Source: a virus. From it: a DNA stretch of 22,739 nt. Within the stretch, counting starts at the first letter, position 1; each line of letters starts with the position of its first letter. Below are positions 4,169 through 12,539 of the stretch, one piece after another. Made by a program: the position numbers and the translations under genes. A model generated the notes under the pieces. The model saw only the letters and a list, made by a program, of their open reading frames with translations, searched no databases and was not told where the DNA came from. Location of the stretch: the IMG/VR virus record IMGVR_UViG_3300042445_000511, positions 1-22,739 of that record, one strand, 5' to 3'.

Positions 4169-4260
4169 AAGTTGTCTTTAAAATTACTTTTTGTTCGTGT
4201 TTTGTGCGTTATAATGCACTTTTGGTTAAGGACTTGGATAACTATTCTATCTGTTTTCAT
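4165..4260 (-). CDS. Short frame from a duplicated gene start (31 aa), possible leader or remnant
   Basis: ATG 4260 opens a 31-residue frame beginning MKTDRIVIQVLNQ, the same 13 residues (one change, V to T) as the start of the 66-residue gene downstream, then continuing with an unrelated basic stretch to a TGA that overlaps the next ATG. It is either the truncated remains of a duplicated copy or a short coupling peptide linking translation of the Mom-like gene (stop at 4247, inside this frame) to the downstream gene. The overlap geometry on both sides would allow continuous reinitiation. No function of the peptide itself can be inferred. Confidence 0.35.
   Translation of the reverse strand: MKTDRIVIQVLNQKCIITHKTRTKSNFKDNL
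4221..4260. repeat. Direct repeat copy 2 (40 nt, gene start)
   Basis: This is the upstream copy of 4129-4168, with two mismatches. It spans the stop codon of the Mom-like gene and the start of the 31-residue frame. Confidence 0.9.
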
Positions 4261-4972
4261 TTTCCGTGTTTTTAATTGGTTCGTTGTAATATTTTGGGTA
4301 AGGTTTTTTCTTTAATAAAACTTTACTTTTCCATTTTTGGTCTATCCAGTAAATGTATCTAAATTGTCTTAATTCTTCGCTTGTAGCTGTTTCTTTATTT
4401 TCTTGTAAAAAAGCTGCTGACTTACTTAATTTTGGGTTTCTTGTCATTAAACTATTATGATATACTTCGTTATTTAAAGTCCAAAATTTAGCAATGTGTT
4501 CACCATAAAACTCAAAATTTGCACCCTGATAAACTATTCCAAAACAACCGCATCTTTCATCTGCAAAACTTTGTATCCATTTTATTTTATGAAATTTACT
4601 TCGAATATATCTAACTGCATAAGATATTGCTTGGCTTTCACTATTTCTTGGTGCTTTGTCATCTAACCACATTCGATTAAGTTCTAAATATTGGTCCATT
4701 TCAGTTCCACTAACAACACTTCCACAACTTGCAGGATTCATAGCATAACCAAATTGCAATATACCTACAAGTTCAGAATTTAACCACACCCCTAAATGTA
4801 TATAAGTTGCATTATAGAATTTTTTGCTGTAATGATTTTTAACTATAATATCGTTTGCTTTATTTCGGTCTATTTCATTAACATAAAATTCTTTTGAACC
4901 AAAACCGATTATTTCACGACTTCCAAAAATTGACTGCTGATTGCTATAAATTAAATCCTTTTTAGAACTCAT
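4247..4972 (-). CDS. mom: Mom-like adenine DNA hypermodification protein
   Basis: Resembles the Mom family of phage Mu, which adds a carbamoylmethyl-type group to N6 of adenine in phage DNA and so blocks host restriction. The fold is GNAT-like. Conserved-looking parts in order: NHYSKKF at 46-52, LGVWLNSELVGILQFGYAMN (60-79), YLELNRMWLDDKAPRNSES (95-113), and the core WIQSFADERCGCFGIVYQGA (132-151). The HY pair at 47-48 and D138 sit where Mu Mom has residues described as essential (from memory). At 241 residues the length fits the family. The gene is visibly more AT-rich than the exonuclease gene it overlaps (ATGA), suggesting separate acquisition. No homologue of the Mu translation activator Com was seen next to it. 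Confidence 0.82.
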   Translation of the reverse strand: MSSKKDLIYSNQQSIFGSREIIGFGSKEFYVNEIDRNKANDIIVKNHYSKKFYNATYIHLGVWLNSELVGILQFGYAMNPASCGSVVSGTEMDQYLELNRMWLDDKAPRNSESQAISYAVRYIRSKFHKIKWIQSFADERCGCFGIVYQGANFEFYGEHIAKFWTLNNEVYHNSLMTRNPKLSKSAAFLQENKETATSEELRQFRYIYWIDQKWKSKVLLKKKPYPKYYNEPIKNTENENR

Positions 4973-5640
4973 AATCTTTCAATTAATTCGTTGTAATATT
5001 CTCTTGCATGTAACAGCTTTTCTTTTACCTTATCAATGTCTTCGTCGGTTAACTCTATTAAGTACGCTCTAACACGCTTATTTTCGCTTATGTGGCTAAA
5101 TTCGTGTTTCGCTCGGACTTCATTCTCGGTTTCTTCCGTTACGTCAATCTCAAATTTCTTCCACGAGGTGCGTCTAATCTCGTCTTGTACGATGTCTTCG
5201 GGCGTGTCGACTAAGCAATACACTACCCGGGCTTTCGTTCGTCCAGTGAGCCAACAATACCCGACCAATTGCCAAAAATAATCCTTGTTAGGTAGTTCAT
5301 CTTCGAACCAAGGGAAGGTAGTGCCGTCCCAACTACATTTGATATCTATAATTTCGTCTTCTAAGATGAGGTCGGGTGTACCTTTGATAAATTCATTTTC
5401 AAAATATTCCGTGTTTTTGAGCGCAAACGGCAAACTTAATACCTTACTAGCCATTTCAATAGCGGTGTCTTCCTGAATGTTCCCCTTGTCAGTGTAACGA
5501 CTTGAGAACTCCTTACGAATACCAAACTTTTCCTCAATGGCAAGTTCTTTTAAATACGTCTTTGCGGTTTGAGACAAGACCTCCCCCTTTGATTTGGGGG
5601 AAGTCATTATCTTACCTAACGAGCTGCAGCGGATTTTCAT
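4969..5640 (-). CDS. YqaJ/lambda-type recombination exonuclease
   Basis: This is a PD-(D/E)XK nuclease of the viral recombinase (YqaJ/lambda exo) type, which would resect double-stranded ends 5'-3' to make single strands for the annealing protein encoded just upstream. The motif order is typical: SSLGKIM at 6-12, the helix DKGNIQEDTAIE (51-62) with E57 as a likely ligand, then the core GTPDLILEDEIIDIKCS (87-103) with D90, D99 and K101, then a Q-L-x-x-Y motif (FWQLVGYCWL, about 121-130). At 223 residues it matches the family. It overlaps ERF by ATGA, forming a classical annealing protein/exonuclease pair likely sharing the promoter at 6212-6238. Confidence 0.88.
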   Translation of the reverse strand: MKIRCSSLGKIMTSPKSKGEVLSQTAKTYLKELAIEEKFGIRKEFSSRYTDKGNIQEDTAIEMASKVLSLPFALKNTEYFENEFIKGTPDLILEDEIIDIKCSWDGTTFPWFEDELPNKDYFWQLVGYCWLTGRTKARVVYCLVDTPEDIVQDEIRRTSWKKFEIDVTEETENEVRAKHEFSHISENKRVRAYLIELTDEDIDKVKEKLLHAREYYNELIERL

Positions 5641-6211: not shown

Positions 6212-6238
6212 CAAATATACGTTTTATTTTTAATACAA
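6212..6238 (-). promoter_or_regulatory. Probable promoter for the ERF/exonuclease unit
   Basis: On the minus strand TTG (6238-6236) precedes TATATTTG (6219-6212) by 16 nt, matching the Bacteroidota -33/-7 pattern with slightly short spacing. It sits at the very end of ninG and 23 nt upstream of the erf start, in one of the few real intergenic gaps of the early region. Confidence 0.5.
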
Positions 6239-6751
6239 TTCGTCTTTTATCTTTTTTTTATATTCAGTGATTAATTCTTTCAATTCTTCCTTATCCCATT
6301 TACGGGTTTGGTGGGCTATATTCTCAAGTTCTTCGTACTTAGTAACTCCAATTTTGCTCAATAAACCATCTCGGTAGGGAAGTAAGTTTCCGTGTTTATG
6401 CTGATTGCAGCTGACACATTGAGCGTGTACGTTGTCAGGGTCAAACCGAACCGAAGAGTGTCCTCCTGCGCTCCAAAAGTGACCAGCGTCGTATTTGCTT
6501 CCGAGGGTGTTACCGCAACTTATACAACCTTGTTCCTGATCCCTAAGCCTTACCCACTTGTTGAACACTTGCTGCGCCAATTTAAGGTAGTCCGAAACGG
6601 TTAGTAGGTCTTCCTTTTGCTTTTTCAACTTGTCCTTTTTCATTTTGGCTAGGTTCTTTAACGCTTGTTCCGTCTTTTTGCAAATGTAACAGTGCTTGTC
6701 CAACGTCGAAAATGGTGTAAAGTTTTCGCCACATTTTTTACATGACTTCAT
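6230..6751 (-). CDS. ninG: NinG (Rap)-like recombination nuclease
   Basis: Matches the lambda NinG/Rap family, a structure-specific endonuclease acting on recombination intermediates such as Holliday junctions and D-loops. An N-terminal zinc knuckle uses C4, C7, C21 and C24, followed by a lysine-rich helix (30-47). The HNH-like core has C76-x2-C79, DAGHFWSAGGHSS (88-100), RFDPDNVHAQCVSCN (102-116) and HKHGN. At 173 residues it is close to the usual family length. It is coupled to the upstream coiled-coil gene (ATGA) and precedes the ERF/exonuclease pair, so the recombination functions are clustered. Confidence 0.9.
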   Translation of the reverse strand: MKSCKKCGENFTPFSTLDKHCYICKKTEQALKNLAKMKKDKLKKQKEDLLTVSDYLKLAQQVFNKWVRLRDQEQGCISCGNTLGSKYDAGHFWSAGGHSSVRFDPDNVHAQCVSCNQHKHGNLLPYRDGLLSKIGVTKYEELENIAHQTRKWDKEELKELITEYKKKIKDELY

Positions 6752-7038
6752 ATAAATTTCTTTAGTTCCGTGTTTTCGTCTCGCAGTCTCAAATTCTCCT
6801 CAAAGACGGAATAGTATTTCTTAACGACTTGCTTGTGGTCTTCACATACTCGGTAAAATGTGAGCATAGCTTCCTTCAATTCAATTTGTCGTGTTTCCAT
6901 CGGCTTAATCAAGTCTACCCGGTGAGCGTGTTTCGTCTTTAGGTCGTCAATGCTCATGCTTAACGCTTGGTCAAGTGTGCGTAGGTTTATTTGTGCGGTT
7001 AAAATGTCTAGTTCTTTCATGTTAAAATGGTAGGTCAT
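6748..7038 (-). CDS. Coiled-coil hypothetical protein (96 aa)
   Basis: I do not recognise this protein. From ATG 7038 it begins MTYHFNMKELDILTAQINLR. A second ATG at 7020 (MKELD), 1 nt after the stop of the upstream ATPase gene, is equally possible and would give 90 residues. Most of the protein should be helical, with a coiled-coil-like end (YYSVFEENLRLRDENTELKK, about 75-94) that has heptad leucines. It lies between the helicase-like ATPase and NinG and is coupled to both, so a helper role in replication or recombination is plausible but unproven. Confidence 0.6.
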   Translation of the reverse strand: MTYHFNMKELDILTAQINLRTLDQALSMSIDDLKTKHAHRVDLIKPMETRQIELKEAMLTFYRVCEDHKQVVKKYYSVFEENLRLRDENTELKKFI

Positions 7039-7897
7039 TGTTTGTATTTACTTTGTTTCGTTTGATTGGGTCAACGCTTCCGCACTTAAACCCTAAGCCC
7101 GAGTTAAAATTAAACATTACGGGTAAATTTAGCGTTGTTTGTCTTCCTCCCGTGTCGGTGTCTTTGACTTTTTCAATGCTCACCATAGTTTCGTACTTCA
7201 TGGTTTCGTGTTTTACTAGCCTATGAACCACTAACATATCGTCACATCGGTTAAGAAAAGCCTTACCACCTTCGATATGGTCTTTCAATGGTGGCTTAAG
7301 GTGACCTTTCCACTCTTTTTGGTCGTCTCCGTACAGCATTCCGCTCCTTCCACTTTCGGAAGTTGGGTGCGTGTTTATGTAGATGGTTTTTCCAGTGGTA
7401 TTGCAGAACTGACGTGCCATGTTTAGAAAGCGATAGTTAGCCTCGTAGCCCATTTGCCTATCCAAACCCGTAAAGGGATCAATTAAACAAGCGTTGCAGT
7501 CCGTCTTTTCAAAGATGCTCAACAACTCTTCAGGTGTGTATAGTTTGTCGTTAGGAATAAACGTAAAGTACGGTTCAAGTGCTAAATAAAACTGCTGAAT
7601 TTCAGACTTTGTTAATTGCTTGTAAGCTACACCCGAATACATTTGTATTAGATCCCGCATAATTTGTCCGCTTTGATTTTCACCCGACCATATGCACCAC
7701 TTTAAACCATGCTTTGAGGTCAGTGCGAGGAAGTACCAATTTATCCAATACGTTTTACCTACATTGTCATGTCCGAGAATTATGTTTAGTTGCTTGGGTT
7801 TAAACCTGAGATAAGTATCTAACTCAATATCCAACCCTAAGCCTTGCTTTATTAGTCCGTCTTTATAATCGAAAAGGTATTTAAGTGTGCTGTTCAT
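7022..7897 (-). CDS. RecA/DnaB-fold replicative ATPase (helicase-like)
   Basis: This is an ATPase of the RecA fold, most like the C-terminal motor of DnaB-type helicases. The Walker A loop GHDNVGKT is at 42-49, and a Walker B strand NACLIDPFTGLD at 135-146 has D140 as metal ligand. A sensor-like KTIYINTHPTSESG lies at about 169-182 and a helix with DHIEGGKAFLNRCDDMLVVHR at 206-226, as in DnaB's 'GG...D..L.l.R' region. There is no N-terminal DnaB domain and no primase motif, so it is a stand-alone motor of 291 residues. It follows the DUF6291 gene directly (ATGA), matching an initiator/helicase pair. A loader-type role rather than a helicase cannot be excluded. Confidence 0.75.
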   Translation of the reverse strand: MNSTLKYLFDYKDGLIKQGLGLDIELDTYLRFKPKQLNIILGHDNVGKTYWINWYFLALTSKHGLKWCIWSGENQSGQIMRDLIQMYSGVAYKQLTKSEIQQFYLALEPYFTFIPNDKLYTPEELLSIFEKTDCNACLIDPFTGLDRQMGYEANYRFLNMARQFCNTTGKTIYINTHPTSESGRSGMLYGDDQKEWKGHLKPPLKDHIEGGKAFLNRCDDMLVVHRLVKHETMKYETMVSIEKVKDTDTGGRQTTLNLPVMFNFNSGLGFKCGSVDPIKRNKVNTNNDLPF

Positions 7898-8487
7898 CGG
7901 TTATTTATTTGTGCCATTACGTTGCGGTAAAGTTGTTGGTCAAGTGTTAAATCTTCGTCACCTTTAATTAGGTTCTCATCTTTAAACCACACACCACGCA
8001 TTTTTTGTTTCCAGTTTAGCACCTTCCTACCTTGGGAGTCTTTCCATTCAGGGTGGTAGTAATTAAATGCTTTGGTTGCACTTTCGGTTGTATAGTTGTT
8101 TTCATTAAAGTAAGCTATTACTTCCTCCAAAATTGGTTGTTTATTTTTAAGAGGTGTGAGTGTTATATTATTGTTATTGTTATTGTTATTGTTATTAGCT
8201 TCGGTTTCGCTTATTTCTTGCTTCGGTTTCGCTTCCTTTTCGCTTGTCTTTTGCTTCTGTTTTGGTTTACTTCCGTTTAAGAACCGCTTTAAATTCGCTT
8301 CTATTTGAGGCTTAATAAGCAACCAAAGTGTTTTACTTAATCCATCTAACTCAACTTCCTTTTGATTAAAACCCATTTCAAAAATAGCGTTCCAAACGTC
8401 TGCTTGTACTTCCTTTTCACATTCTTTCAGGGACTCAAAAAATGACCGATAAACAATCATTGTTTCCCTACCTTTTTCTTTACTCAT
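7894..8487 (-). CDS. DUF6291-like replication protein with poly-Asn linker
   Basis: This is a probable phage replication initiation or helicase-loading protein. The N-terminal 65 residues (MIVYRSFFESLKECEKEVQA ... LIKPQIEANLKRFLNG) match the DUF6291 pattern of Bacteroidota and Firmicutes phages. Then comes a low-complexity Lys/Gln/Glu linker and ten consecutive Asn (about 98-107). The C-terminal domain (VIAYFNENNYTTESATKAFN ... KVLNWKQKMRGVWF) is of the type found at the end of phage Rep/DnaT-like proteins. Translation may start at ATG 8487 or at ATG 8460 (MIVYRSF), which is nearer to the family start. It couples to the helicase-like gene by ATGA. Confidence 0.65.
   Translation of the reverse strand: MSKEKGRETMIVYRSFFESLKECEKEVQADVWNAIFEMGFNQKEVELDGLSKTLWLLIKPQIEANLKRFLNGSKPKQKQKTSEKEAKPKQEISETEANNNNNNNNNNITLTPLKNKQPILEEVIAYFNENNYTTESATKAFNYYHPEWKDSQGRKVLNWKQKMRGVWFKDENLIKGDEDLTLDQQLYRNVMAQINNR
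8167..8196 (-). repeat. AAT/AAC microsatellite in coding sequence
   Basis: Thirty bases alternate AAT and AAC codons, encoding ten Asn in the linker of the DUF6291-like protein. Slippage here would change linker length in steps of one or two residues without breaking the frame. Confidence 0.9.
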
Positions 8488-8506
8488 TTTCTAAAATTTA
8501 GTCAAC

Positions 8507-8594
8507 AAAAAAACCCTATCCACTTTCACGGCTCTCACCTCGCTACTTGTAAATAGGGTTGTTAAAAACATCCTAAGTTCTATAATGTGAGAGC
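8507..8594 (-). ncRNA. Structured RNA element with interleaved stems ending in a terminator
   Basis: On the minus strand the order is GCTCTCAC (8594-8587), AACCCTAT (8560-8553), GTGAGAGC (8538-8531), ATAGGGTT (8519-8512), then a T run. The first pairs with the third and the second with the fourth, each 8 bp and perfect. The second helix can extend by two G-U pairs. The helices are interleaved, so they can form together only as a pseudoknot, or else exclude each other as alternatives. The second helix plus T run looks like an intrinsic terminator with a 33-nt loop. It fills most of the 168-nt gap between the nuclease-like gene and the DUF6291-like gene. It may be an attenuator, a riboswitch-like leader, or a separate small RNA. 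I do not recognise a known class. Confidence 0.5.
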
Positions 8595-8655
8595 GAACCT
8601 TCTACAATATTAAGTACTATTTAATTCATTTGGTTAATTATTTTTTACGGGGTTT

Positions 8656-9072
8656 TCAACAGTGCTTTTTAATAATTAAATCAACTGCATCTTTAAACAA
8701 AATATTTCGTTCTTCCCATTTATTATTTGTATTCGAATAAAAACTCAATACCCTTGAATTTTCAATTTGAATTTGATTGTTCTCAACTACACCTTGAACA
8801 TACAAAAAATAAACTGGTATTGTGTCTCGACTTATATACCTGCATAAATTTTGAGCTAGTATTTTCTGTCCACTTGGTAAGCCGTTAATTTTTTCACTTC
8901 GTTTAACTTCGGCAAAAATTAATACTTTGTTGCTTATTTCTAAAACCCAATCTAAATCTGTTGGTGTACATTTATTAAAACTCCTACCTTTAAAATTTAC
9001 AACGTAAGAATCTTTTCTATTAAAATCCCATTCGCCTTTTATTGTTTTAGAATTGTCCTTGTTCAGCTCCAT
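8656..9072 (-). CDS. PD-(D/E)XK nuclease-like protein next to a methyltransferase (138 aa)
   Basis: This is a small protein with a possible PD-(D/E)XK nuclease core. From ATG 9072 it begins MELNKDNSKTIKGEWDFNRK. The segment PTDLDWVLEISNKVLIFAEVK (37-57) has the acidic residue, hydrophobic strand and E-V-K of the motif (D41 or D39, E55, K57), followed by a helix SGQKILAQNLCRYI that could carry the downstream Q. The rest is strand-rich with no other domain. A longer reading from TTG 9126 is unlikely. It overlaps the ParB/MT-A70 gene by 26 nt and is likewise AT-rich, so the two probably moved together. It could be the nuclease half of a restriction-modification-like pair, a defence nuclease, or an inactive relative. 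Confidence 0.55.
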   Translation of the reverse strand: MELNKDNSKTIKGEWDFNRKDSYVVNFKGRSFNKCTPTDLDWVLEISNKVLIFAEVKRSEKINGLPSGQKILAQNLCRYISRDTIPVYFLYVQGVVENNQIQIENSRVLSFYSNTNNKWEERNILFKDAVDLIIKKHC

Positions 9073-10180
9073 AATGGTCCCAATTTTCTCTGTTTTGTCT
9101 ACTAAAATAATCCAACTTATTGCCAATACACATCCGTTCCGCCATTTGGTAAAATGCTTCAGGCTTTCTTGAGTGTTCTCTTCTTGGTTCTGTAATTATA
9201 TCACGCTCACTACTTCCGTTTATTATGGGGTTTCCTTTAACTGCAATTAAGCAAAATTCAACCTGCATTCTAACTGTTCTTCCTAGTCCCATTTTAACTT
9301 TATCCCATACCAAAGTAGCCTTATATTTAAAACCCCATTCGTCAACTAAATCAAAACTGTCTTTTAAAAACGCATGCGTAGTCCATAAAAATAAAACACA
9401 ATCGTCTGCGGCTGGTAATTCAATTTTTTTAATTTGTTCAACTGTCATTGTAGGGTAATCAACTGCACCTCTATTGCTTTCTGAGTCATAATCAGCACTA
9501 GAAAAACCTCCCTTTTCTTCATACGCCCAAGGTGGGTCAATACCAATAACGTGATATTTTTTATCAGGAGTTACTAAGTTTTCAGATTCTATTTTAGCTT
9601 TTACTTCTTCTATTTTTTTATCTCTTTCTTCTTTCTTTTCTTCTTTTTTTATGTCTTGATAAACTTGGTTTATACTTACCTCCCCAGTTGAAAGTTTAGC
9701 TTTTGTTTCTTCATTTGCTTTTGCTTCAATTACCTTAACCCTTGCAATAGTTTGTTCACCTACGGAAGCTACTTTAGCAAGTTCTTTTCTTGTATCTATT
9801 GGTATTTGTTTTGGTGAATTCACCGAAACAGATTCAGGCTTTCTAATTTGTTGCTCCTTTGCTTTTTCACTAAACACTTCCTCAAGTTGTAAGGCTAAAA
9901 CTGAACGTTGGTAATTGCTTAAATTTCTTCTGCCAAATTGGTTATTAATCATCCATTCACGTACATCGTTTTCGTTATTAAAACGCTTACTTTCTGTTTC
10001 GTAGTCTAAATTCCAACGTGTAGCAATTTCGTAACGGTTATGGCCGTCAATAATAAAACCATTCCAAGTAATAATTTTTTCACGGATTCCTTCTTCCAAA
10101 CAATTTGACTCTAGTTGTTTAAACTCTTCGGCAGTCAATGCTGGTATTAACTTTTTAAATTCTTCTTTTATTTGTAACAT
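9047..10180 (-). CDS. ParB-domain / MT-A70 adenine-N6 DNA methyltransferase fusion
   Basis: This is a two-domain protein of 377 residues. The N-terminal part is a ParB-like nuclease/NTPase-type domain (GFIIDGHNRYEIATRWNLDY at 41-60; VREWMINNQFGRRNLS at about 73-88), followed by an HTH-like segment (TRKELAKVASVGEQTIARVK, 130-149) and a charged coiled stretch. The C-terminal part is an MT-A70 methyltransferase: VIGIDPPWAYEE with the catalytic DPPW at 215-218, VLFLWTTHAFL, LVWDKVKMGLGRT, and SRKPEAFYQMAERM. It should methylate adenine N6 in DNA, protecting phage DNA or marking sites. ParB/MT-A70 fusions are known in phages and mobile elements. Its AT-rich codon use differs from the flanking replication genes. 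Confidence 0.85.
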   Translation of the reverse strand: MLQIKEEFKKLIPALTAEEFKQLESNCLEEGIREKIITWNGFIIDGHNRYEIATRWNLDYETESKRFNNENDVREWMINNQFGRRNLSNYQRSVLALQLEEVFSEKAKEQQIRKPESVSVNSPKQIPIDTRKELAKVASVGEQTIARVKVIEAKANEETKAKLSTGEVSINQVYQDIKKEEKKEERDKKIEEVKAKIESENLVTPDKKYHVIGIDPPWAYEEKGGFSSADYDSESNRGAVDYPTMTVEQIKKIELPAADDCVLFLWTTHAFLKDSFDLVDEWGFKYKATLVWDKVKMGLGRTVRMQVEFCLIAVKGNPIINGSSERDIITEPRREHSRKPEAFYQMAERMCIGNKLDYFSRQNRENWDHYGAEQGQF

Positions 10181-10200
10181 AATTTTTGTTTTTTAATTGT

Positions 10201-10644
10201 TTATTTATTTTGGTTTAATTTCTTGTAACGAGTTTTCAACAAGTTTTCAATTCGTCGTGCCGAAATAATCAAAGCCGTATTGTAGTCGTTTGCGTGTGCG
10301 TTAGTTATTTCGATGCACTCCAAAACCTCGTTTAGCTTTTCTAGTAGTTCGGGGTGGTAACCTTCCAGTGCTAACTTAACCATTTCTTGTGAGTGGATAA
10401 CCGTTGCGTGGTTCTTATTAAATAACTTTCCTGCCTCGGTAAGTGAAAAGCCTGACAACGTAGCCCACACCATACCAACTTGCCTCCATTGCATTAACTG
10501 TCTAAGTCGGTTTGCTTCCTTTAGTGACTCATGCGAACACGGACAAACTAAAAAGAATTCGTGCATGGTGTAAAAATTTCGTTTCGGTAGGTAGGACTTG
10601 ATAAACTTTATTTTTCTTCCGTATTCTGTGCTGACTTTAACCAT
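10201..10644 (-). CDS. DnaA domain IV-like DNA-binding protein (147 aa)
   Basis: The core RQLMQWRQVGMVWATLSGFS (48-67) followed by LTEAGKLFNKNHATVIHSQE (68-87) matches the DnaA domain IV pattern, including the signature 'R/K-x-H-(S/A)-T-V-x-H' that reads the DnaA box. No AAA+ domain is present, so this is a stand-alone DNA-binding module. It could recognise phage origin sequences, recruit or compete with host DnaA, or regulate transcription. The C-terminal 50 residues are helical and basic at the end (LLKTRYKKLNQNK). The start overlaps the preceding gene by 37 nt. An internal ATG at residue 27 gives a shorter alternative that keeps the domain intact. Confidence 0.75.
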   Translation of the reverse strand: MVKVSTEYGRKIKFIKSYLPKRNFYTMHEFFLVCPCSHESLKEANRLRQLMQWRQVGMVWATLSGFSLTEAGKLFNKNHATVIHSQEMVKLALEGYHPELLEKLNEVLECIEITNAHANDYNTALIISARRIENLLKTRYKKLNQNK

Positions 10645-11887: not shown

Positions 11888-12001
11888 TTAAGGTATTAAG
11901 ATGATGATTAATAAAATGATTACGATGCCGACGAAAAGACCGCCTAATGCGTTACGCTCGTCTGCGTTGCGTGGTGTGAAATAGTTAACTAGTTTTTTCA
12001 T
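11888..12001 (-). CDS. Single-pass small membrane protein (37 aa)
   Basis: This short gene runs from ATG 12001 to TAA 11890-11888. A basic and polar N-terminus (MKKLVNYFTPRNADERNALG) precedes one very hydrophobic helix (GLFVGIVIILLIIILIP), so it should sit in the inner membrane with the N-terminus inside. It lies 3 nt from the next gene. Small single-helix proteins in phage early regions often tune host functions, but nothing specific can be inferred here. The 49 nt upstream contain a GTGCG/CGCAC inverted repeat without a T run. Confidence 0.5.
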   Translation of the reverse strand: MKKLVNYFTPRNADERNALGGLFVGIVIILLIIILIP

Positions 12002-12050
12002 GTTGTTAAGTTTAAAATGTGCGTTACGGATGCGCACCCCCCGTTTTGTT

Positions 12051-12239
12051 TTAGTTATTCTCGTCTAAGTATTGTTCGTATTTAGCAAGTAATTCTGTTA
12101 ATTCGTTAACTTGCTTTTCCGTAAATGGCATATTTAAAGTTTCGATAAATTCTTTAGCGTTGCTTTTTCTAAATACAGATAGAACTGCGTTAACTACTTG
12201 TTGTGAATTTGGCTTGTTTTGTTTTTTTGTTGCTTTCAT
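12051..12239 (-). CDS. Small hypothetical protein, first gene of the early unit (62 aa)
   Basis: It begins MKATKKQNKPNSQQVVNAVL with a basic disordered start, then two or three helices (VFRKSNAKEFIETLNMPFTEKQVNELTELLAKYEQYLDENN). The second half has the regular leucine spacing of a small helical bundle. It is the first gene after the long non-coding region and so may be among the first made on infection. That would suit a host-takeover or regulatory protein, but this is inferred from position only. Confidence 0.55.
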   Translation of the reverse strand: MKATKKQNKPNSQQVVNAVLSVFRKSNAKEFIETLNMPFTEKQVNELTELLAKYEQYLDENN

Positions 12240-12480
12240 CGTGTTTTGTTTTTTGTTTTGTGCCTTATTGACATTTGTAAAATTAGTATATTAAAATTAC
12301 TACACAATACATTTAAACACTTTTTTAACAAAATAAATAAAAGTTTATTTTAAAAGTCAATGTTTACAAGGGTTTCAGAACGAAAAAAAACTTTGCGGAA
12401 TTTGCATTTTGTCAAGTTTATTGCTTAAAAAACGTGACATTTGTCACAAAATTAGGCTAAATGTGTGACGGAAATGTAAC
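12240..12480 (-). promoter_or_regulatory. AT-rich non-coding leader, probable early promoter region
   Basis: This stretch has no gene on either strand. On the minus strand TTGACT at 12360-12355 is followed by an AT-rich run ending TTATTTTG at 12336-12329, one base off TAnnTTTG at about the right spacing. A second -7-like TAATTTTG lies at 12454-12447. The rest is A/T-rich with long A and T runs. It should drive the early genes from 12239 leftward. AT-richness next to repeats is also what a replication origin would look like. Confidence 0.45.
12434..12447. promoter_or_regulatory. 14-bp palindrome, possible operator
   Basis: GTGACATTTGTCAC is a perfect inverted repeat of 6 bp with a 2-bp centre. 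It shares its end base with the TAATTTTG element (12447-12454), so a bound protein would sit over the transcription start. Further GTGAC/GTAAC half-sites lie at 12465-12469 and 12476-12480. The binder is unknown. Confidence 0.45.
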
Positions 12481-12539
12481 ACTTGGGGGTAACTTGGGGG
12501 GTAACTTGGGGGGTGACTTGGGGGGAGACTTGGGGGGTA
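12481..12539. repeat. Five tandem copies of a G-rich 12-mer
   Basis: Five units, ACTTGGGGG(G) plus a two-base tail (TA, TA, TG, AG, TA), start at 12481, 12492, 12504, 12516 and 12528. The first is 11 nt, the rest 12. The plus strand has five runs of five or six G and so could form a G-quadruplex. The units sit in the gap between the late terminator and the early promoter region. An iteron-like origin or regulator array is possible. Confidence 0.9.

Follow-up and report, generated by a model that had tools for sequence, protein, structure and literature searches.

A probable restriction-modification-like cassette of phages: a constant ParB-fold module with an exchangeable methyltransferase domain and small candidate nuclease

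The window analyzed here, a 22,739-nt IMG/VR virus record that is itself a fragment and within which the locus was read, carries a gene for a methyltransferase (MTase) with a ParB-fold N-terminus that overlaps a gene for a small protein, P0001. Across related loci the MTase domain and the nuclease-type partner are replaced as one block behind a constant ParB module, and the resulting cassette goes unrecognized by the defence and Pfam models now in use. We propose, with a probability of roughly two in three, that the two proteins constitute a phage-encoded restriction-modification (RM)-like unit in which the ParB module is held constant and the specificities of modification and cleavage are exchangeable.

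Organization of the locus

A sequence-only reading of this region had described an MTase gene overlapping a gene for a 138-residue protein by 26 nt, and the open reading frames (ORFs) and coordinates agree with that description (Table 1). An alternative TTG-initiated frame of P0001 extends to 9126 and would encode 156 aa; despite this longer frame, the ATG start and the overlap are conserved in 8/8 relatives. The overlap of this length is kept in all P0001-type loci and is also found in L022, L023, L027 and L028, whose nuclease belongs to another family. Relative to the window copy, the MTase has a dN/dS of about 0.10 and the P0001 gene one of 0.12-0.16, low values which indicate that both genes are maintained by purifying selection. 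The same reading had remarked on an AT-rich composition of the pair unlike that of the flanking genes. The contrast is real: the GC fraction is 0.30-0.35 over 8250-10250, whereas it reaches 0.38-0.42 at 7000-8000 and 0.36-0.41 immediately upstream. Such a contrast is not unique to the pair, as there are further AT-rich patches in the window at the Mom gene (4250-5000) and at 12000-12500.

Table 1. Features of the ParB-MTase/P0001 locus in window coordinates
Feature	Position	Strand	Details or basis
ParB-fold/MT-A70 adenine methyltransferase gene	9047-10180	-	377 aa
Small protein P0001 gene	8656-9072	-	138 aa, ATG at 9072
Overlap of MTase 3' end and P0001 start	9047-9072	-	26 nt
ParB-fold N-terminal module, constant part	9626..10180	-	residues 1-185; DGHNR 45-49, RRN 84-86
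MT-A70 domain, exchangeable part	9047..9625	-	Pfam residues 209-373; DPPW 215-218 = 9527-9538
Candidate PD-(D/E)XK-type nuclease, exchangeable part	8656..9072	-	conserved residues, model, dN/dS
P0001 invariant residues	D41 8950-8952; E55 8908-8910; K57 8902-8904; Q69 8866-8868	-	
Cassette span set by the L240 empty site	8648..10201	-	alignment to L240
Short direct repeat GTTTTCAACA, one cassette edge	8652..8661	+	read from sequence
Second GTTTTCAACA copy, other cassette edge, within the end of the DnaA_C-like gene	10232..10241	+	read from sequence

The ParB-methyltransferase protein

The C-terminal half of the window MTase matches the Pfam MT-A70 profile over residues 209-373 (E=1.2e-23; 84.4 bits against a cut-off of 23.9) with a DPPW motif at 215-218, which places it in the MT-A70 family and bears out the earlier claim of an adenine methyltransferase with the motif at this position; the PADLOC MTase_II model also matches it (2e-45). 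The ParB-like N-terminus that had likewise been proposed is supported by a match of the N-terminal half to phrog_12047 (ParB-like, 2.4e-10), by its alignment with ParB-N proteins and by a ParB-type DGHNR box that is invariant in 17 aligned sequences, although the Pfam ParBc model gave no score on this half. The ParB-CTPase fold has been described as a nucleotide-binding module that is fused to DNA MTases and enriched in phages and prophages (Kaljevic et al. 2025, PMC12704722), and the window protein, with its probable ParB fold joined to a DNA MTase and its conserved arginine in the DGHNR box, resembles those fusions as the available text presents them. The available text of that survey (PMC12704722) mentions neither a nuclease partner nor exchange of the MTase domain.

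The small partner protein

Searches of Pfam, PHROGs, NCBIfam, PADLOC and PDB sequences gave no significant match for P0001. A scan of viral contigs yielded seven relatives with 83-96% identity, and no relatives were found in GTDB genomes (searched by peptide patterns), INPHARED phages or PLSDB plasmids. The D...E-V-K core that had suggested a nuclease is present as D41...E55-V-K57 and is invariant in eight close and 17 diverse relatives; Q69 is likewise invariant. A first AlphaFold model built from eight near-identical sequences was poor (pLDDT 62), and its Foldseek matches in the PDB were uninformative. The second model, built from a diverse alignment (A4), reached a pLDDT of 71.8 overall and of 77-93 over residues 40-138, with the first ~35 residues unmodelled. 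Its predicted order of elements is a strand at 42-46, a strand at 50-57, a helix at 67-79, a strand at 87-93, two more strands and a helix, with D41, E55 and K57 lying near or on the first two strands of a strand-strand-helix-strand core. Conservation and model together thus predict a D-(X)n-(D/E)-x-K arrangement on adjacent strands of an α/β core, which is the hallmark of the PD-(D/E)XK class.

Structure searches with this region (8656-9072), which the sequence-only reading had proposed as a check of the fold, returned nuclease-like matches among the best, at Z-scores below 8 that do not amount to proof. In VIA-align several Hjc/Hje resolvases were near the top, with 1ob8 aligned at Z 7.4 and an rmsd of 2.8 Å over almost the entire chain (85 residues); unrelated DHH-type folds scored at similar Z, and the best matches were all below Z 8. 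Foldseek against the PDB returned many HincII entries with weak E-values, and its best BFVD match, obtained with the first, poorer model, was a 'VRR-NUC domain' protein from a phage (E 5.8e-4, probability 1.0). The fold of P0001 is therefore probably, though not provenly, that of a small PD-(D/E)XK enzyme of the Hjc/VRR-NUC-like type, the assignment being held at probable because of these Z-scores and the like scores of the DHH-type folds.

The partner proteins encoded at related loci fall into many families. The D-x-D...E-x-K...Q pattern of P0001 is common to a group of them that includes the partners at L051, L131, L144 and L082. A profile of the A5 partners matched four Hjc sequences weakly but consistently (E 0.004-0.02), and its sub-threshold matches comprised PDDEXK_5, UPF0102, NERD and Hjc; VRR_NUC was also among the sub-threshold matches of the partner families. 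PDB sequence searches with P0001, A4, A6 and A7 returned nothing useful, with no match of the partner families A6 and A7 to any nuclease of known structure. In the A7 family (partners at L050, L052, L159, L183 and L187) a D...VRIR...T-x-R...TE-x-x-K pattern is shared by members that range from phages to Anaerolineae and other phyla. The partner at L165 does not look nuclease-like. PADLOC gave no restriction endonuclease (REase) match for P0001 or ten partner proteins, so that its defence models recognize the MTase of the window cassette and not both components.

Recurrent pairing of the two genes

Each of the seven viral relatives of P0001 (7/7) is preceded by a ParB-MTase gene that it overlaps by the same 26 nt. 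Searches that began from the MTase and continued from its ParB half recovered 220 loci with a usable ParB frame, a sample gathered as the best matches by ParB-N similarity that includes short contigs and in which contigs and pairs are partly redundant. Filtering at <90% identity of the MTase domain left 62 fused ParB-MTase loci, 49 of them viral and 13 from GTDB genomes, with MTases of the MT-A70 or N4/N6 (DPPY) type apart from a single C5-like one that is truncated; besides viral contigs, such loci occur in bacterial and archaeal ones. At 57 of the 62 a same-strand ORF of 95-235 aa starts between -79 and +7 nt from the MTase stop. The five exceptions comprise L128 and L167, where the ORF begins further upstream, a disrupted copy (L056), a contig end (L219) and L170, the only one of the 62 that clearly lacks a small partner ORF. 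The neighbourhood survey that had been suggested as a check on recurrence accordingly found the pairing in all relatives of P0001 and far beyond them.

A crude D..ExK signature was present in 35/57 partners against 71/314 like-sized background ORFs (p=1.6e-8), a regular expression whose background rate of 23% confines its use to this test of enrichment. The same signature was seen in 0/15 genes behind ParB proteins without an MTase, and nine cultured phages with an MT-A70 MTase and no ParB fusion had no comparable neighbour directly behind the MTase. An orphan MTase is one with no nuclease partner gene, and a nuclease-type partner is present at nearly all of the ParB-MTase loci.

Several loci at the margins of this family deserve mention. 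At L144 (4001-5786) a ParB N-terminus is fused to an apparent C5-cytosine MTase, and the next gene encodes a protein with a D-I-D...E-S-K pattern. The fused MTase, which may be truncated or split, matches just the first half of the Pfam profile (positions 3-163 of 324) and was not accepted as a firm third MTase class. In L105 (4001-5582), L127 (3992-5621) and L163 (5001-5954) the same ParB-fold N-terminus is fused, with no MTase, to a domain that we take to be DUF4326-like, and in L105 and L127 this fusion is followed by an overlapping gene of 223-229 aa, which does not make an MTase-nuclease pair. The 'putative restriction endonuclease' beside the ParB gene of bajarodcaudo virus 4 was likewise rejected as a member: it looks HNH-like and lies upstream, and the ParB protein has no MTase.

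The same gene arrangement as in the window is seen in gp52-gp53 of Methanoculleus virus L4768/Blf4, an archaeal virus. Its full-length ParB-N4/N6-MTase has 39% identity over 100% of that of L051, and gp53 (L015, 6208-6774), with 189 aa, overlaps the MTase gene and displays a D...IDVERK motif. It differs from the window in that gp53 has no Pfam match and no recognized similarity to P0001.

Block replacement of the MTase domain and the nuclease

The similarity of the MTase domains is correlated with that of the nucleases (Mantel r=0.67 overall for the 57 loci; range across comparisons 0.66-0.81), and this holds within classes, with r of 0.72 for the MT-A70 loci and 0.81 for the N4/N6 loci. The ParB half, despite being in the same gene as the MTase, correlates with the MTase or the nuclease at r of only about 0.04-0.16 among the viral loci. 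Pairs were then considered with at least 75% DNA identity on both sides, unrelated nucleases and MTase domains of <35% identity. In 42 such flank-matched pairs, not all of them independent, from 33 loci, both the MTase domain and the nuclease are replaced, one of the alleles being L021, a P0001-type locus. On the left, homology is lost between +532 and +694 nt counted from the ParB start, with a median of +554 that falls in the KEIKKEEKKE linker at about residue 185. On the right it returns within -45 to +34 nt of the stop codon of the nuclease gene, at a median of -6. These break positions indicate that the segment exchanged by recombination coincides almost exactly with the MTase domain plus the nuclease. 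None of the flank-matched pairs (0) had the MTase swapped while the nuclease was kept.

The two components are nevertheless not strictly locked, as indicated by the flank-matched pair L032/L149, in which the nuclease differs at 49% MTase identity, and by L022, L023 and L026, whose MTase domains are 82-89% identical to that of the window and yet accompany different nucleases. Such nuclease-only differences may reflect different nucleases for one site or a nuclease recruited by the MTase. The latter leads to a rather improbable alternative, under which the nuclease would possess no sequence specificity of its own and would be recruited by a ParB-MTase that senses the methylation state, dividing the task between two proteins in a manner reminiscent of type I and type III systems. 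An interchange of nuclease families behind a similar MTase, as in L022, L023 and L026, is what would be expected if the MTase supplied target recognition, and the nucleases are very small; on the other hand, the MTase and nuclease mostly change together, and a motor or translocase domain is absent.

Mobility and genomic neighbourhood of the cassette

Four phages with a helicase-like protein 87-100% identical to that of the window (L239, L240, L242 and L243) lack both cassette genes, and their DnaA_C-like gene is directly followed by the downstream DUF6291-type region. In L240, whose helicase-like protein is 97% identical, window position 10202 is joined to 8647. These empty sites in near-identical phages imply that the MTase and nuclease form an accessory unit and support its joint arrival or loss; together with the block replacement they lend weight to the earlier suggestion that the two genes arrived together. 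The GTTTTCAACA repeats at the edges possibly provided microhomology for gain or loss of the cassette; at the copy in 8652-8661 the alignment with L240 shows an overlap. In L241 (3788-4312) the slot of the cassette holds no MTase but a single, unrelated gene of 174 aa that carries a D...ELKK motif.

The cassette sits among phage replication and recombination genes. The affiliation indicated by the related helicase-like and portal proteins is with Bacteroidota phages (Cellulophaga, Maribacter, Nonlabens). The gene upstream of the cassette (10201-10644, minus strand) encodes a DnaA C-terminal DNA-binding domain (PF08299, 1.3e-8) and is possibly a replication initiator or regulator. The DUF6291-type gene (7894-8487, minus strand) contains a run of ATT/GTT triplets at 8160-8200, specifying about ten asparagines, that varies among relatives. 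A further DNA-modification gene of the phage, of the Mom family (4247-4972, minus strand; Pfam Mom E=2.4e-69), lies in a very AT-rich stretch and overlaps an exonuclease gene (phrog_5715, 4969-5640); the Mom gene is present at 100% in L239 and was not detected in the stretch of L240 examined.

This setting bears on two other explanations. It is unlikely enough that we do not favor it, but the small protein might be a structure-specific Hjc-/VRR-NUC-like resolvase for recombination or replication that merely shares an operon with an MTase acting as an orphan against host restriction. The best structural and profile likenesses are indeed to Hjc/Hje and VRR-NUC, and behind a ParB-less MT-A70 gene in L081 lies a protein that we take to be a RusA-type resolvase. 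Yet the genome already has a junction endonuclease, NinG/Rap, at 6230-6751, the closest relatives are entirely without the small gene, and its families swap together with the MTase domain, which is not required of a housekeeping resolvase. A prophage- or plasmid-like addiction or maintenance module, a selfish RM element whose nuclease would kill cells that lose the methylase and whose ParB part would be tied to maintenance, appears very unlikely. The ParB fold, the occurrence in bacterial and archaeal as well as viral contigs, and the mobility of the cassette with its empty sites would suit such a module; against it, no ParA or integrase was recognized next to the cassette in the window, and the fragment, with the locus placed among replication and recombination genes, gives no sign of lysogeny.

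Potential functional mechanism

The candidate nuclease fold matches, the recurrent pairing and the co-inheritance together support the RM-like partnership that had been proposed from the sequence. Adjacent, overlapping and co-inherited genes for an MTase and a nuclease-type protein are shared with type II RM systems in which an MT-A70-type MTase is paired with a PD-(D/E)XK partner. Unlike these, the present MTase carries a ParB-fold domain, the candidate nuclease is small and missed by the PADLOC models, and the MTase domain and candidate nuclease are replaced as a block behind the constant domain. At 138 aa P0001 is also small for a type II enzyme that recognizes a specific sequence, a point against the RM-like reading. 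In RM systems the MTase and the nuclease must share specificity, a requirement that would explain the joint exchange of the two, and their treatment as one unit by recombination is the expected signature of coupled specificity.

In the mechanism that we infer, including cleavage, methylation, their cognate specificity, the role of the ParB part and the biological target, the MT-A70 domain would methylate a motif in the phage's own DNA and the PD-(D/E)XK-type protein would cut DNA that does not bear this mark, either the host chromosome or competing phage or plasmid DNA, or both. If host DNA were the target, the purpose might be nucleotide supply or shut-off. The constant ParB-fold N-terminus, probably through NTP-dependent DNA binding or as a clamp, would deliver the MTase to DNA, and the MTase domain and nuclease would be exchanged as a block when recombination joins sequences in the ParB linker and at the stop codon of the nuclease gene. 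A more elaborate version, which we regard as unlikely, has an NTP-driven ParB clamp that loads at a parS-like site on the phage's own genome and spreads, such that the fused MTase could quickly mark 'self' in cis before the co-translated nuclease cuts other DNA, with the swappable blocks diversifying the self marks. If true, this would be a new principle of viral self/non-self DNA discrimination. In the 400 nt ahead of the ParB start at 48 loci, no common palindrome of the parS-like kind stood out above shuffled sequences.

Conclusions

Virus-borne RM systems with proven activity include M./R.Nph3I of Nitratiruptor phage NrS-3 (PMC10734518) and the GATC system of Marseilleviridae (PMC7253447), which share with the present cassette a virus-borne MTase paired with a nuclease, here a candidate one. 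In the available text of these sources those systems are individually characterized and no ParB module is described (PMC10734518, PMC7253447), whereas the present one is a widespread family with many candidate nuclease types, known from sequence. No description of this ParB-MTase/nuclease cassette was found in the open-licence literature.

As a rule phage MTases are regarded as orphans that conceal phage DNA from the restriction systems of the host. They far exceed recognized REases, as in sea-ice viruses, where 376 MTases were reported against 48 REases in Caudoviricetes (PMC12570018). Homology searches would label the window MTase as such an orphan, but it has a conserved, unrecognized nuclease-type partner, and the cassette may account for part of this excess. 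Our observations suggest that many supposedly lone phage methylases are one half of a hidden system of self/non-self DNA recognition, for which Blf4 gp52-gp53 might be a culturable test case. Should cleavage be confirmed, many of the viral MTases now called orphans would be parts of complete RM systems, phage populations would hold alleles for self/non-self specificity in one fixed slot, and the partner families would represent a rich set of small uncharacterized nucleases, each paired with a methylase.
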